From: Elusimicrobiota bacterium
GTDB taxonomy: Bacteria > Elusimicrobiota > Elusimicrobia > JACQPE01
DNA length: 64,000 nucleotides
Assembly (NCBI GenBank): GCA_016180815.1
Contig: JACPAN010000010.1
Span: 79,913-143,912 of the forward strand
Direction: 5' to 3'
Below the pieces are notes generated by a model. That model was not told where the DNA came from and searched no databases. It worked only from the letters and a program-made list of their open reading frames with translations. Position numbers and translations under genes: made by a program. Below, piece after piece: positions 22,940 through 30,019 of the stretch (positions are counted from its first letter, which is position 1; every line of letters starts with the position of its first letter).

Positions 22940-22957
22940 ATTTTCTTATTAAAATAT
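22933..22957 (+). repeat. left copy of direct repeat flanking the AbiE-like pair
   Basis: GGCTTAAATTTTCTTATT (22933-22950), including the metallophosphoesterase stop codon, recurs exactly at 25003-25020. The next seven bases match at five. The two copies are about 2.07 kb apart and enclose the two-gene AbiE-like module. Confidence 0.75.
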
Positions 22958-23787
22958 CAAGGTCTCTCTGATTGAAAACCTTTTTTGAAAGCGGCCAATA
23001 GAGCACGGCCCTCCGCTCTCTTTTTATCGGCGCTCTCCTCAAGAAAACCTGCGGCCAAAGCATCCATAAACGGCGAATCCGGGTCCTCGGATTCCTTCAA
23101 TAACCGCTCCACGTAGGCCGCGGCATCCGAGGACGCGAGCGCGCGGACCTCCCTGCCAAGCAATGCGGCCCCGGCGGTCTCATAGTCCTCATGGACCAAG
23201 CCAGGCTTTCCGGCCAAATCAAAGCGCCGGTCATCTTTAATGCCGCCGGCATAATTGTGAAGCCAGTACTCAATATCCCTGGCGTCATCCCGGCGCTTCG
23301 CGTCATTGCGCGCCTTGCGTTCAAGATAGGCAATCACTTTCAAAAGAACAAAACCAGACACAGTGATCACCGGCACGGGAAGTTCCTTCTCCGAAGCGGC
23401 CTTACGCGCCGCGGCGCAGACTTCATCAAAACCCAACACCGACATTTCAAGTTCGGATTTCGGCCAAGTTATCTTTCCATCCGGGGCAATCTCCCGCCCG
23501 TATGGAATGAGATCAACCATCGCGGTCCCAAGGTGCAAGCGATGTTCAATTCTGGGATTGGGCTTAAAATCGCGCTTCATCAGTTCTTCGTGAAACTTTT
23601 GATAAGTAGGCCAGTCACGCACGTACACGCCGAAGTCGGCGTCGTTGGTGCGCCGGAACCGCGGATAATCGGAGCCCATCTCCGGCGTAAACTCCGCCAT
23701 CAACGCCCCGACTAAAACGATGTCGAGTTTAAGGCTTTCCGCGGCTCCGCAAACTTCCTCAACCGCCTTCTTAAGCGCTTTATCCAT
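22957..23787 (-). CDS. predicted nucleotidyltransferase, AbiEii-like toxin component
   Basis: A 276-residue protein from the ATG at 23785-23787, chosen because GGAAG stands 6 bases upstream; a TTG six codons earlier is also open. The segment LVGALMAEFTPEMGSDYPRFRRTNDADFGVYV resembles the nucleotidyltransferase core, with the two aspartates of NDADF as metal ligands. A later strand, GTAMVDLIPYG, would supply the third acidic residue. The rest is helical. It overlaps the upstream gene by 8 bases. By position and fold it is the toxin-like half of a type IV AbiE-like pair. A chromosomal nucleotidyltransferase of other function is the alternative. Confidence 0.65.
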   Translation of the reverse strand: MDKALKKAVEEVCGAAESLKLDIVLVGALMAEFTPEMGSDYPRFRRTNDADFGVYVRDWPTYQKFHEELMKRDFKPNPRIEHRLHLGTAMVDLIPYGREIAPDGKITWPKSELEMSVLGFDEVCAAARKAASEKELPVPVITVSGFVLLKVIAYLERKARNDAKRRDDARDIEYWLHNYAGGIKDDRRFDLAGKPGLVHEDYETAGAALLGREVRALASSDAAAYVERLLKESEDPDSPFMDALAAGFLEESADKKRAEGRALLAAFKKGFQSERP

Positions 23788-24850
23788 GAACACTTCCGGC
23801 TTCAAGGAAGCGTTCGTAAATCATTTGCGCCGTTTCCACCTCGCGCGCGCCTCCGGCCTCCAGAAGCTCGGCATAAATTAAAAGAGGAGTCGCCAAGGGC
23901 CATGGAACTTTCAATTCACCCCCGATCGCCGCGGCGCCAAAGAGCCGGAACACCGTCACATTGCCGGCCGCATCATCGCGCAGCATAGGCTCCCCCTCCA
24001 GCTTCGTCCTCGCTTGATCGTCCACAAAAAGCGCAACGGCATCCGGCTCCAAATAATGAGTCATCTCCCGCGCGGCCATGCCGCCGGTAACGGCCCAGTG
24101 GCCTCCCATACCGGCCAAACGCTGCGCAAATCCTTCAAGAATTTCCTGCGGCGCCCGCATCTTGTGCCTGTAACGCCCCAGCAGGCATACAGGCCGCAGC
24201 TTAAAGGCATACCCTCGCACAAATAACTCAATCAACCCCTTAATATCGCCGAATCGCTTCGTGCCCCCAGCCGCAGGCAAAAGCCACTGCCCATTTTGCA
24301 GTTCTTTCATGACGGCTTGCGCGGTCCCGAGGGCAACATCCGCCCCTCCCGCGATCGCTCGCAAAGGGTCTCCCACGGCTTGGGGGTGAGTGAGAAGATA
24401 ATGAATAATTTTAAGCCCGCCCATCTCGATGAGCCTTCCCGGCTCAGCTTTCAAGGGCCGATCCGGTTTCCTGCCCCGAATATCAACCACCACTTGCGGA
24501 GGCTTCTGGATAAAAGCGTTGCCTTGAGCGTCAATAAAAAAAACGCCCGCTCTGCGGAACTCCTCCGCCGCCGGCTCCGGAATCCAATGGGTAAAAACCA
24601 TCGCTCCCGCATTGCCGGCTTGGCCTTTCAACTGAAGAATAATATGAAGCGCTTGGTTACGGTTGTCAATTCGCGCCTTCACCTCTATGGCCAAATTCAC
24701 AGCCGGCTTAGTTCCGATGTGGAGGTCAAAATCATAACCGCGTTTCGCCGCTTCCAAACGAAGAGGCAACCCAGGCCCCATGGCTTCTTTGAGCCTCTCC
24801 ATACAAGCCTTAGCCAGCTCTATAGTGTTCTCTAAAACGATAGTGTTCAT
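23780..24850 (-). CDS. AbiEi-like antitoxin / transcriptional regulator
   Basis: A 356-residue protein. The N-terminal half has a nuclease-like alpha/beta region (YDFDLHIGTKPAVNLAIEVKARID). A winged-helix-like segment follows (GGLKIIHYLLTHPQAVGDPLRAIAGGADVALGTAQAVMKELQNGQWL, about 145-190). The C-terminal domain includes WAVTGGMAAREMTHYLEPDAVALFVDD. This order fits the AbiEi_2 (COG4861-type) antitoxin family, which partners nucleotidyltransferases and represses its own operon. It is the first gene of the pair and is preceded by a strong promoter with an operator-like palindrome over the start codon. Function is inferred from family resemblance and pairing. Confidence 0.65.
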   Translation of the reverse strand: MNTIVLENTIELAKACMERLKEAMGPGLPLRLEAAKRGYDFDLHIGTKPAVNLAIEVKARIDNRNQALHIILQLKGQAGNAGAMVFTHWIPEPAAEEFRRAGVFFIDAQGNAFIQKPPQVVVDIRGRKPDRPLKAEPGRLIEMGGLKIIHYLLTHPQAVGDPLRAIAGGADVALGTAQAVMKELQNGQWLLPAAGGTKRFGDIKGLIELFVRGYAFKLRPVCLLGRYRHKMRAPQEILEGFAQRLAGMGGHWAVTGGMAAREMTHYLEPDAVALFVDDQARTKLEGEPMLRDDAAGNVTVFRLFGAAAIGGELKVPWPLATPLLIYAELLEAGGAREVETAQMIYERFLEAGSVHG

Positions 24851-25229: not shown

Positions 25230-25478
25230 ATGGGTATGGCAAAGCGAAAATTAGAACTGCCCCTATTGGTTGAAAAAGACGAAGACGGGCTTTATGTTGT
25301 TGAGTGTCCAGTGCTTTCCGGATGTTACACTCAGGGTAAAACCTTGGATGAAGCTTTGAAAAATATTCAAGAAGTCATAACGCTTTGCGCCGAAGAAGAA
25401 GAAAATCGTAAGGTTTTGCGTGATTACCATCCGCAGTCTTTTTCCTTTCATACCATCACCTCGATGGTAAATGTCTAA
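25230..25478 (+). CDS. hicB: HicB-like antitoxin (short form)
   Basis: An 82-residue protein with the HicB core: LPLLVEKDEDGLYVVECPVLSGCYTQGKTLDEALKNIQEVITLCAEEE, the partial RNase H-like fold of the family. The C-terminal DNA-binding helix-turn-helix or ribbon-helix-helix found in many HicB proteins is absent, as in other short forms. A Shine-Dalgarno (AGGGG, 7 bases before ATG) supports the start. It overlaps hicA by 8 bases, so the two are translationally coupled. HicB neutralises HicA. Confidence 0.82.
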   Translation: MGMAKRKLELPLLVEKDEDGLYVVECPVLSGCYTQGKTLDEALKNIQEVITLCAEEEENRKVLRDYHPQSFSFHTITSMVNV

Positions 25479-25704
25479 AGAATTACCCACTATTTCACCC
25501 GAACGGGCTATTCGTGCGTTTGAACGGCTGGGCTACAAAGTGGTCCGCCAGCGTGGCAGTCACGCCCGTTTAATTCATCCAGACGGTAAAAACCGAAAGC
25601 CTCTGACAATTCCTCGCCATCACAAAGACTTGGGTCGCGGTCTTCTGCGTAAGTTGTGCCGAGACGCAGGCGTAATGCCGCAGCAACTGGCAGATTTGCT
25701 TTAA
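25471..25704 (+). CDS. hicA: HicA-like mRNA interferase toxin
   Basis: A 77-residue YcfA/HicA protein. The double-stranded-RNA-binding-like fold is visible as ERLGYKVVRQRGSHARLIHPDG, with the catalytic histidine in GSHARL, then LTIPRHHKDLGRGLLRKLCRDAGV. HicA cuts mRNA when not bound by HicB. The order antitoxin-then-toxin is reversed compared with the classical hicAB order but is common. It lies between the AbiE-like module and the integron remnant. Confidence 0.85.
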   Translation: MSKELPTISPERAIRAFERLGYKVVRQRGSHARLIHPDGKNRKPLTIPRHHKDLGRGLLRKLCRDAGVMPQQLADLL

Positions 25705-26397: not shown

Positions 26398-26779
26398 ATA
26401 GAGGGCCTAACGGGGACTGCCCAGCGGCGGCTACTGAAACCCCTTGCTGGCCGCCAGAGCTCAAGTTGATGTTAGGCGTCATCATCCCATGTCTTCGGAC
26501 TTCCGGGCAACCGATCAGCCACATAATAAACTGCCCGAAGGCTATCAAGGCTCCTGCGACTGTCCCGGAGATGGCCAATTTTTACTTCACGTACGCCCAA
26601 TATAGGGAAGGATTCTCCTCCCGACGGACACTAAGGTTCGGCAGCGGCCTCCTCTGTGAAACGTTCGCTTCGCCGGTGTAGATTTCAATGCCCGCGATTA
26701 GAGCAAACGGAGAAAAAAACAAAAAGCCCGCCATTATGCAGAATTGTCTCACCGACGCTGGGCTGACATTTTTCAGCAT
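26384..26779 (-). pseudogene. two-TM cassette gene with an in-frame stop
   Basis: The ATG at 26777-26779 has a Shine-Dalgarno-like AAGGATCC and opens a 65-codon frame. This includes one transmembrane helix (IMAGFLFFSPFALIAGIEIY) and ends at TAA (26582-26584). In the same frame directly after this stop comes KLAISGTVAGALIAFGQFIM, a second hydrophobic helix, then WLIGCPEVRRHG. The frame then reads through attC1 to 26384. Hence the gene probably encoded a two-helix protein of about 105 residues before a nonsense mutation; alternatively only the 65-residue product (26582-26779) is made. Its cassette is bounded by attC2 and attC1. Confidence 0.6.
26405..26477 (-). other. integron attC site 1
   Basis: It is bounded by GCCTAAC (26405-26411) and GTTAGGC (26471-26477), which are complementary and match the consensus core sites RYYYAAC and GTTRRRY. 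Between them are imperfectly self-complementary GC-rich arms (GGCGGC near 26425 with GCCGCC near 26450). Length 73 bases. Confidence 0.85.
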
Positions 26780-26800
26780 AGGATCCTTTGTGTCCGGTAC

Positions 26801-26860
26801 GCCTAACGACCGAGCTCAGCCGCCGCGCTGCCTGCGGTCGGTTGTAGCGACTTGTTAGCC
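26801..26860 (-). other. integron attC site 2
   Basis: A 60-base site bounded by GCCTAAC (26801-26807) and GTTAGCC (26854-26860). On the minus strand CAACCGACCGC and GCGGCGGCTGAGCTCGGTC resemble the L'' and L' arms of classical attC sites, so the site is oriented with the minus-strand cassettes. The stop codon of the IS-interrupted cassette gene (TAA at 26855-26857) lies in its outer core, as usual for cassettes. Confidence 0.87.
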
Positions 26861-27057
26861 ACACCTTAGTACCAGTACCACGGAAGCCGCAAGTAGGGAT
26901 GAGAAGAACTTAAGCTTATTATCTCCGTAATCACGGCGGATTCCCGCATTCGTGGGCGTGTTCATGATGTGCGGATGCTGTGCATTGAACCAGCCACGAA
27001 AAATAATAAAGTGAGGGACTTCCTCTCCTGTTAGTATCTGGTACGTCTCGCATGAAT

Positions 27058-27738
27058 CTAGTGCTCTGACCGCATAGAATCCATAAAATTATATTTGAAT
27101 TTCTTCCTCGCATCCTTGACCGTAAATCTCCAGTCAATCTTGAGTCGCCGACGGTTCGCTTGACGATTCCAGGCGGAGGCCTGAGACCGCAAGGATTGAA
27201 TGTCTCCAATACGATCCTTGCCGAGACACTGACGGGAAAACACCCCAATCTCAATCTCCGCCTGGTCAAGCCAGCTTCCATGTTTTGGAGTGTAGTGGAT
27301 TGTAAACCGGTTCCAGATGCTTGCGCCCCGCTTCTTCCCGTAGAAGTCCGTCAAGGATTTCCCGCAGTGGGTATTGAGATTGTCCACGACCAGGTGGATT
27401 GTCCTGGCTTTAGGATAGGCCTTTGCGATCCTGGAGATTATTTTGGCGAACTGGGGTCCCTTTCGATTCTTGGTCACCTTCGTGATATGACGCCCCGCCT
27501 TGGGTTCTACGGCGCAGAACACGTTGGCGGTTCCACTTCGGACATATTCGCTGTCGCGTTTGAAAATAGTCCCGGGCTTGTCCGCCGGCAGAGAGGGCCG
27601 GGCGTCTTGGAGTAATTGCACCGGCTTTTCATCCAAGCAGACAACTGGCTCTTTCTTGTCCAAGGGTTTTTCGTAAAGGTCCAGGACATCCTCCATCTTT
27701 TCAACGTATTCCGTCGTCAATTCAGGAATGCACCACAT
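27058..27738 (-). CDS. IS630-family transposase, DDE catalytic part
   Basis: A 226-codon frame holding the catalytic triad of the IS630/Tc1 superfamily. The first Asp is in VVCLDEKPVQLL, the second in HLVVDNLNTHCG and the Glu in KHGSWLDQAEIEIGVF. It starts at ATG in the frame that continues the upstream helix-turn-helix part. The junction is an A7 run, so the full transposase needs a shift (equivalent to loss of one A). The TAG stop at 27058-27060 is formed by the target TA plus the base outside, not by the element itself. Confidence 0.88.
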   Translation of the reverse strand: MWCIPELTTEYVEKMEDVLDLYEKPLDKKEPVVCLDEKPVQLLQDARPSLPADKPGTIFKRDSEYVRSGTANVFCAVEPKAGRHITKVTKNRKGPQFAKIISRIAKAYPKARTIHLVVDNLNTHCGKSLTDFYGKKRGASIWNRFTIHYTPKHGSWLDQAEIEIGVFSRQCLGKDRIGDIQSLRSQASAWNRQANRRRLKIDWRFTVKDARKKFKYNFMDSMRSEH

Positions 27739-28287
27739 TTTTTTCCCGCCAGGGTTTGAGGTGGTGGCTTTTTAGGAGAACCCGGACGGTTTCCCGTCCC
27801 ACCCTGGGTACCAACTTGCGTTTGCGAACCTCTTCGACGATTAAGCGCACGCTCCAACGAGCGAATCCTGCCGGCGGCGCGCTGCAGACCATGGCAACGA
27901 TTTTTTGCCGCTGTTTGTCGTTGAGCGCGGGGGCCTTTCCAGGACGAGGCGCATCCCGTAAAGCACGATTAAAGCCGCCCTGCTCATACCGCCATGCGGT
28001 CTCATAGGCAGTGGCAATCGCGGCGCCAGCCGCCTCGGCAGCGGCCTGCCCTGATTTCCCCGCATCCAATAACTGTAAAATTCGCGCCCTTTTTACAACC
28101 CTGACGGATTCTCTGCCTTTGCTCATAAGCTCCTTGAGTCTTTTCCTATCCTTCGGCAGCAATTTTAGCTTCAACTTCCCATTTCTCTTCTTTCTCCCCT
28201 TCCCTGATTTGTACGCCATACGCTAAGGATAACCAATATGGCGCGCTGGGTAATAATAATTTTCTGTATTTCATGCGGTCAGAGCAC
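27061..28287 (-). mobile_element. IS630-family insertion sequence, 1227 bp
   Basis: The ends are inverted repeats: GTGCTCTGACCGCAT at 27061-27075 and its complement at 28273-28287. Similarity continues inwards (TAAAATTAT and AAAATTATT). The element is flanked by TA at 27059-27060 and 28288-28289, the target duplication of this family. It carries two transposase frames on the minus strand. It sits inside a cassette gene of the integron. Confidence 0.93.
27722..28219 (-). CDS. IS630-family transposase, N-terminal DNA-binding part
   Basis: A 165-codon frame with a basic N-terminus and two helix-turn-helix units, e.g. VVKRARILQLLDAGKSGQAAAEAAGAAIATAYETAWRYEQGG and ARWSVRLIVEEVRKRKLVPRVGRETVRVLLKSHHLKPWRE. 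It ends NVVHS after the A7 run at about 27738-27744. The next frame begins MWCIPELT, the residues that normally follow LKPWREK in this family. Either slippage on A7 makes a fusion transposase or a one-base insertion has split the gene. Confidence 0.85.
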   Translation of the reverse strand: MAYKSGKGRKKRNGKLKLKLLPKDRKRLKELMSKGRESVRVVKRARILQLLDAGKSGQAAAEAAGAAIATAYETAWRYEQGGFNRALRDAPRPGKAPALNDKQRQKIVAMVCSAPPAGFARWSVRLIVEEVRKRKLVPRVGRETVRVLLKSHHLKPWREKNVVHS

Positions 28288-28607
28288 TAGAAGGAAGTAA
28301 TCATTAATATCTGGGTAGAAAGTAAAAATACCTTTTGGGTCCCTGTCGGCATGTTTAAAGAAATTTCTTGCTTCTTTCAGCCACCCTCTAAATTCCTCTT
28401 TGTACTGCTCGTTAATCAACGAATCGCTCATTATTGTTGGTGAATTCCCTGCCTCCTTGTTGAGCGTTACCAGGACTTCGTGCGATGCACATGTGAGAGT
28501 ATGAATTGACACCGGATCAGCATCGTTAAAATAGAGCGTAACGGCAGTTTCAAGTTGCCGTTTTGCTACATCTAGCTTGGTAAGCGCCATCTCTTTATTC
28601 ATAGTGT

Positions 28608-28687
28608 GGCTAACGCCGAGGATGAGTGGCGGCGGCTATCAAGATATCCCTCACCGAGCCGCCGACCGCTCTATCCATTGGTTAGGG
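28608..28687 (-). other. integron attC site 3
   Basis: An 80-base site bounded by GGCTAAC (28608-28614) and GTTAGGG (28681-28687), with GC-rich arms GGCGGCGGC and GCCGCCGAC that can pair. The stop of the adjoining cassette gene (TAA, 28682-28684) is within its outer core. Confidence 0.85.
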
Positions 28688-29116
28688 GTCCCTTGGCTTT
28701 TGGCCTGACGCCCAGAGCCAAACTTTAAACGTTTCCGGATCGTCCGAAGGAGAAATCGCCAAATCCTTGCGGATCTCAAAAAAGAATTTGGACATCAGCG
28801 CATCATGACGTTCAAGAGATTTGTCCTTATTTGAGATTTTAATTTCCTGCTGAAATCCGTGAAGCGCATCCATCACTTGTTGAGGTGCTACCAGCATCAT
28901 CTTATTGCACGCGCGCGAAAAATTCCTGTGGCCCTCAGGAGTGGCTTCCCCTGAAATTACGCCGCTTAAGCTGGCTACAAAATCCTTGTAGTGCTCCAGC
29001 TTTTCCTTTCGCCAGTCGGCCTCGCGCTCCCGTTGCTTGGTGAACCAATAGCTCAGCCCTGCGACGGTGATACCGCCGAACATTGCGATTAATGCCGTTG
29101 CCACTTGTGCTGACAT
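28682..29116 (-). CDS. membrane-anchored helical protein, integron cassette gene
   Basis: A 144-residue protein. One N-terminal transmembrane helix (VATALIAMFGGITVAGLSYWF) is followed by a charged, helical cytoplasmic domain (REREADWRKEKLEHYKDFVASLSGVISGE...). Single-helix anchors with such a domain are a recurrent cassette-encoded type; function unknown. AGAGGAAAC directly before the ATG provides a Shine-Dalgarno. The stop codon is embedded in attC3 and the start lies 16 bases from attC4, so this is a complete, intact cassette. Confidence 0.72.
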   Translation of the reverse strand: MSAQVATALIAMFGGITVAGLSYWFTKQREREADWRKEKLEHYKDFVASLSGVISGEATPEGHRNFSRACNKMMLVAPQQVMDALHGFQQEIKISNKDKSLERHDALMSKFFFEIRKDLAISPSDDPETFKVWLWASGQKPRDP

Positions 29117-29132
29117 GTTTCCTCTTGGGGAC

Positions 29133-29204
29133 CCCTAACGCTGCCGCTCAGCAGCCGCGGCCATAGGAACTCCTTCGAAGCCGCGGTCTGCTGAAGGGTT
29201 AGGG
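29133..29204 (-). other. integron attC site 4
   Basis: A 72-base site bounded by CCCTAAC (29133-29139) and GTTAGGG (29198-29204). On the minus strand the arms CAGCAGACCGCGGC and GCCGCGGCTGCTG pair perfectly except for one unpaired base. That is the extrahelical base expected in the L'' arm, which defines orientation. It is the best-formed of the four sites. Confidence 0.9.
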
Positions 29205-29726
29205 GCTCCACTTTTCTGCTGTTTCGATCGACGAGTCCGGCCACTCCAGTTCCTCCAACAAGCTAATGCCTCCCGAATCAAAAAATTTCGCGTAATCTCT
29301 ACGAGGTTTTGGCACACCATTCCTTAACGTAGCCGGCTGGCACCGCCATCCTCTTCCCGTCGGTTTGATCTGATTTCTAGGCATATATGCAACGCAAACT
29401 GGCTCGGAAGGGTTTTGAGACGAAAAGTACGGGATTGCGAGGACCATCTCATCATGTAGCTCGCTCAGCTCCTCAGTATAACCATACGCATCCTTATCGG
29501 CAGTTCCCGATCTTGGGTATTTGCCCTTCACTTGAACTGGGCGGATAATTGGAACGCCAATTGGGTACTTCGTGATGATGAAATCAAAGCCCTGGTCGCG
29601 ATGCGGAAAGTAGATGTTCCACCCCGCATCCGCCAAACGGCCAGCCACGTAAAGCTCAGCAAAATAGTCACTAACACGGACAAACTTGCCCTGAGCTTCT
29701 GAGCTCCCCGGTTCTCTGTTTCTCAT
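29199..29726 (-). CDS. PD-(D/E)XK nuclease-like protein, first integron cassette gene
   Basis: A 175-residue protein from the ATG at 29724-29726; a TTG at 29762 is open but would precede the cassette boundary. The N-terminal region FAELYVAGRLADAGWNIYFPHRDQGFDFIITKY...VQVKGKY has the helix, then D-x(n)-QxK pattern of restriction-endonuclease-like folds of the DUF4365 kind. D of GFDF and Q-V-K would be the active-site residues. No methylase partner is near, so a stand-alone defence or repair nuclease is possible. Its stop TAA lies in attC4. It is the first cassette next to the integrase remnant. Confidence 0.65.
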   Translation of the reverse strand: MRNREPGSSEAQGKFVRVSDYFAELYVAGRLADAGWNIYFPHRDQGFDFIITKYPIGVPIIRPVQVKGKYPRSGTADKDAYGYTEELSELHDEMVLAIPYFSSQNPSEPVCVAYMPRNQIKPTGRGWRCQPATLRNGVPKPRRDYAKFFDSGGISLLEELEWPDSSIETAEKWSP

Positions 29727-29755
29727 CGGGCGGCCTATCCTCCCCAAACAACAAT

Positions 29756-30019
29756 TTTTCAATATACAAGATTCAGGGAACTCCCCTCAACGCGCTGGCC
29801 GAAGGAAAACAAGATGATCTTCAGGCCTTCGCCCAATGGTTAAACGATGATCAGCATTGCCGGCCATGGCAAGTCAGCCAGGCTCTTGACGCGGTCAATT
29901 TTTTTAATCGGACATCCGGAAAGCCGGGGCCGGCCATCGCCCGTGACAACGTGCTTGAAAAAGCGCAAGATTATTTCAAGCTAAAGCATTTTTCGAGCCG
30001 CACCTCCGATCTGCCTTAA
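29756..30019 (+). pseudogene. truncated integron-integrase (IntI-like) fragment
   Basis: An open frame without ATG, GTG or TTG runs to TAA at 30017-30019. The clear coding part begins near ATT 29771. It reads LQAFAQWLNDDQHCRPWQVS, continues ALDAVNFFNR, and ends VLEKAQDYFKLKHFSSRTSDLP. The last part aligns with the start of the SAM-like core-binding domain of integron integrases (IntI1: [22 protein letters not shown]). The preceding part looks like the N-terminal extension of many environmental relatives. The catalytic domain with its R-H-R-Y residues is entirely missing. Orientation is divergent from the cassette array and adjacent to it, exactly where intI belongs. Confidence 0.62.

Follow-up and report, generated by a model that had tools for sequence, protein, structure and literature searches.

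The window, that is, the whole stretch of 64,000 nucleotides that was analysed, contains an array of four cassettes on the minus strand. The third cassette carries a gene that is split by an element assigned to the IS630 family. The genes of the array point away from a possible remnant of an integron integrase gene, which lies on the plus strand. The coordinates of all features are collected in Table 1.

Just beyond the array, a HicB-like/HicA toxin-antitoxin pair (Pfam HicB_lk_antitox, HicA_toxin) is encoded on the plus strand at 25230-25704. Positions 22957-24850 hold an AbiEi-type regulator gene (PF09952) followed by a 282-aa ORF without NCBIfam match, and these two may form a type IV toxin-antitoxin-like pair.

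Table 1. Features of the cassette array, the inserted element and the split gene.
Feature	Positions	Strand	Evidence or remark
Cassette 1, 610 bp	29139..29748	-	encoded protein has a relative on Qipengyuania plasmids
Cassette 2, 525 bp; gene 29116-28682	28614..29138	-	ends match over 12 nt
Cassette 3, 1807 bp; 578 bp without the IS and one TA	26807..28613	-	11-nt end match
Cassette 4, 396 bp	26411..26806	-	ends match over 9 nt
attC1; stop TAA of gene 29762/29726-29199 in R''	29133..29204	-	attC scan and cassette ends
attC2 (R'' CCCTAAC ... R' GTTAGCC), bounding the split cassette on its 5' side	28608..28687	-	
attC3 (R'' GGCTAAC ... R' GTTAGGC), site at which the split cassette recombines	26801..26860	-	
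attC4	26405..26477	-	
Possible remnant of integron integrase N-terminus	29780..30019	+	divergent from the array; weak matches
5' part of split cassette gene, codons 1 to ~104	28290..28602	-	profile positions 1-104 (74 homologues), E 1e-42
3' part of split cassette gene, ending at the TAA in attC3 R''	26855..27060	-	profile positions 106-156, E 3e-6
IS630-family insert of 1227 bp, present once in the genome	27061..28287	-	transposase models, inverted repeats, TA duplication
TA target copy, left	27059..27060	.	flanks the IS; empty site CTAG
TA target copy, right	28288..28289	.	flanks the IS
Transposase frame A, HTH part	27722..28219	-	NF033545 positions 1-119
Transposase frame B, DDE_3 part	27058..27738	-	NF033545 positions 124-297; A7 run shared with frame A

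Cassettes, attC sites and integrase

The features of attC sites (R''/R' cores with palindromic arms, located at the 3' end of a gene) were present in attC1 to attC4, and in each of cassettes 1 to 3 the stop of the gene is contained in R''. A strict attC scan returned one site only, and a relaxed scan was noisy, with 9 chance sites expected per 64 kb. Matching of the cassette ends was therefore employed, and the case for the attC sites is carried by their spacing together with these end matches. In a cassette, the 5' end goes back to R' of the circle, and this end is complementary to the R'' of the same cassette. In cassette 3, the 5' end GTTAGCCACAC (at 28614) agrees over 11 nt with the reverse complement of R'' (at 26854), and the two matching ends are situated on opposite sides of the IS. 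Among random GTT/AAC pairs from the window, a match as good as that of cassette 3 occurred at a frequency of 3.5e-5. The 12-nt end match of cassette 2 was also found blind, as repeat I5. At 29749, the 5' end of cassette 1, GTTTGGGG, shows one mismatch to the expected GTTAGGGG and is a candidate for a degenerate attI-like border, situated beside the possible integrase remnant. Folding of attC3 alone was moderate (-11 to -12 kcal/mol), which counts against the best explanation given below. A lone attC-like palindrome (L141, C10:38854-38932) was observed on the same contig, approximately 68 kb from the array.

The frame of cassette 4 contains an in-frame TAA at 26584-26582 (codon 66), after which an open, membrane-protein-like continuation follows in the same frame. 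No homologue of this protein was found among plasmids or within the phylum, so that the stop is not callable as a mutation; the gene is possibly a second dead cassette gene.

A complete integron integrase, searched for with TIGR02249, gave no match above the cut-off in the genome, which is 99.5% complete; among the 235 genomes of the class, such an integrase is present in 28. The segment at 29780-30019 may represent a remnant of the N-terminus of an integron integrase, as suggested by weak matches to Phage_int_SAM_4 (E 7e-4, below the cut-off) and, in a phmmer search, to the integrases of the class (E 0.002). A profile of the class scored this segment higher than all 1000 shuffles; a two-sequence profile was not significant. 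The simplest reading of the array is an integron after loss of its integrase. It shares attC sites, one gene per cassette, stops within R'' and loss of the integrase with the integron arrays with inactive or missing intI that occur in many Xanthomonas, and with CALIN-like arrays; it differs from these in comprising only four cassettes and in having a possible intI remnant still adjacent.

The inserted element and the joined frame

Judged by its sequence, the insert is an IS630-family element with a DDE transposase, inverted repeats and a duplicated TA. The terminal inverted repeat extends over 36 nt (89%), a span that includes the TA and adjoining flank bases. The transposase is encoded by two frames, A and B, which overlap at an A7 run, GGGAAAAAAATG. 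NF033545, the NCBIfam model of IS630 transposases, matched frame B above the cut-off (1e-35) and frame A, taken alone, below it (1.5e-20); Pfam DDE_3 was matched with 1.6e-22. Because a 69% identical relative of the element in another family of the class (L130) has the same A7 two-frame overlap, the split frame is regarded as characteristic of this IS group rather than as decay. Frames A and B would be joined into one transposase by slippage, or by a frameshift, at the A7 run. Frame B ends at a TAG (27058-27060) to which the target TA contributes two bases and the adjacent flank base the third. A CTAG target would always provide this stop.

With the IS630 family of the Tc1/mariner/IS630 superfamily, including IS630 of Shigella and ISY100, the element has in common the DDE_3 transposase, the HTH part, the inverted repeats, the TA duplication and the CTAG target. 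Its transposase is distributed over two overlapping frames, whereas single transposase genes are described for IS630-family elements (PMC2170065). For ISY100, which belongs to the IS630 family, insertion is almost exclusively into TA, with duplication of this dinucleotide (PMC2170065), and a preference of IS630 for CTAG is given in the title of a work listed among the references of that paper (Tenzen and Ohtsubo 1991).

Deletion of 27061-28287 together with one TA (1229 bp) results in a single minus-strand ORF of 172 codons, extending from the ATG at 28602 to the TAA at 26857-26855. The exact joining of the two frames, which had been proposed in the first-pass annotation, was thus confirmed to the base. 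As had also been proposed, the stop falls within an attC core: it is part of GGCTAAC, which forms R'' of the site at 26801-26860. The former designation of this site as attC2 is replaced, as it is the third of four recognisable attC sites when counted from the integrase end. The target TA falls in codon 105 (CTA) of the split gene, and the reconstructed empty site reads CTAG. Without splicing, the 5' part reads on for two codons after residue 105 and then meets a stop within the terminal repeat, giving 107 aa. The borders assigned earlier to the IS and to the cassette, as well as the TA target duplication, all hold, and the cassette-end match adds new evidence.

Homologues of the split gene

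The product of the joined frame belongs to a widespread, unnamed family of proteins that are about 180 aa long and contain an NFFKHAD motif; the family occurs in many bacterial phyla and also on plasmids. Homologues were collected as plasmid copies, which were aligned, and as 80 genome loci (L048-L127) from many phyla. The genome search was performed with a three-sequence alignment as query; a single-sequence scan gave nothing, and a first alignment was too diverse. Most homologues comprise 165-219 aa, and 75 of the 80 genome homologues have at least 165 aa. Of the five shorter homologues, four (95, 135, 142 and 144 aa) do not end at residue 105, and the fifth (101 aa) runs off the end of its contig. 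A natural end at residue 105 was therefore not seen among the 80 genome homologues, and homologues in many phyla and on plasmids extend beyond the junction. A length of 172 aa fits the range of the family, whereas 107 aa does not. By the end-match test, 2 of 82 homologues were located in a cassette, compared to 0.15% at control positions.

No Pfam or NCBIfam model matched the family above the cut-off. Relatives of the joined protein were not found in viral contigs and phage records, PADLOC gave no meaningful matches, and a sequence search of the PDB returned designed proteins only. The AF2 model of one homologue (L048) is all-helical with a pLDDT of 90.8. When this model was compared to the PDB with Foldseek, no match reached E <= 0.001; the weak matches to natural proteins include several HEPN proteins (2hsb with prob 0.72, 1ufb, and AbiV 9bj7). 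The Apea-like HEPN model of Pfam gave a weak match in 3 of 70 family members. In the Rx4-6H motif, the His is invariant, an observation biased by the search pattern, which itself contained His; an Arg at -5 is present in 17 of 78 sequences, and a conserved catalytic Arg is absent. The split gene itself reads RNFFKH. The family is possibly HEPN-like and was not placed as a member of HEPN. It is a speculative and rather doubtful proposal that its proteins form a divergent HEPN-like clade, for the most part non-catalytic, which takes part in conflicts between mobile elements and their hosts. A separate family termed integron cassette HEPN is known (PDB 3jrt; PMC3710099). Both consist of all-helical proteins found on cassettes; in the present family, the HEPN-like structural and Pfam matches are weak, 3jrt is not among the 50 best Foldseek matches listed, and the Arg of Rx4-6H is restricted to the 17 sequences mentioned above.

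Origin of the split gene and order of events

A shared reading frame by itself is weak evidence for one former gene; if the two flanks were unrelated ORFs, the same frame would arise by chance in one of three cases. A profile was built from 74 homologues, with this gene left out, and was searched with six-frame peptides of each flank separately, in unjoined form. Taken singly, the left flank matched profile positions 1-104 (E 1e-42). The right flank, likewise on its own, matched positions 106-156 (E 3e-6) with 23.8 bits, whereas none of 2000 shuffled versions of the right part exceeded 3.9 bits. As the matches of the unjoined flanks abut in the profile, the flanks represent neighbouring parts of a single domain that meet exactly at the junction. 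A coincidental joining of unrelated ORFs is refuted by these matches to adjacent parts of one homologous family, is further contradicted by the cassette ends that match each other across the IS, and retains practically no probability. On sequence grounds, the two halves once formed one gene, which was split by insertion of the IS. The continuation beyond residue 105, claimed earlier as part of the gene, belongs to the family: conservation is detectable for residues ~106-156, and the last ~16 residues are not detectably conserved and do not align with the homologues. The exact native C-terminus therefore depends on the stop placed in attC. Most of the conserved motifs, including NFFKHAD, lie within the first 105 residues, and the truncated protein of 107 aa, or a product restarted within the 3' part, might on this account still be functional; this is improbable, as no full homologue is so short and the helices beyond residue 105 in the predicted model would be lost.

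A four-cassette array in which the gene of cassette 3 was split by an IS630-family transposition is almost certainly the correct explanation of the locus. As the sequence shows, cassette 3 was originally a unit of 578 bp with one 172-codon gene and an attC overlapping the stop of this gene. An IS630-family element transposed into CTAG at codon 105 and duplicated the TA. What remained was a truncated ORF of 107 aa, ending in the terminal repeat, together with a 3' part severed from its start. The split gene is presumably dead. Since both bounding attC sites are recognisable, cassette 3 would in principle still be excisable; no complete integron integrase is left in the genome to excise it.

The earlier statement that the IS arrived after the cassette stands in so far as the element entered after the gene and the cassette existed; it does not extend to the capture of the cassette by the array, relative to which nothing dates the insertion. 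The IS may already have been present at capture, in which case the 1.8-kb cassette moved as a unit. The recognisable attC sites on both sides are compatible with this, and the IS is single-copy in the genome and hence without another known local source. However, an IS-bearing cassette was not found in any other genome of the class, and in an array now without integrase an insertion after capture takes fewer steps, so that insertion before capture is the less likely order, though one to be reckoned with. In sister genomes, neither an uninterrupted cassette nor an empty site was found; the three genomes of the same family lack the gene, and no pdxS-like gene to anchor the locus was found in the same-family sister genomes.

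Insertion sequences and transposases within cassettes are frequently observed, and inactivation of intI is widespread (PMC12444791). The insertion of an IS630-family element into a cassette, the preferred explanation of this locus, is a clean new instance of such known, ordinary events. Its value is that the borders of the IS, the cassette and the gene are fixed together, by independent tests. It provides a worked example of an array falling silent, with its integrase gone, one gene split, and possibly another one interrupted by a stop. The more useful by-product is the recovered full-length protein, which exposes a widespread family without a Pfam or NCBIfam model above the cut-off.
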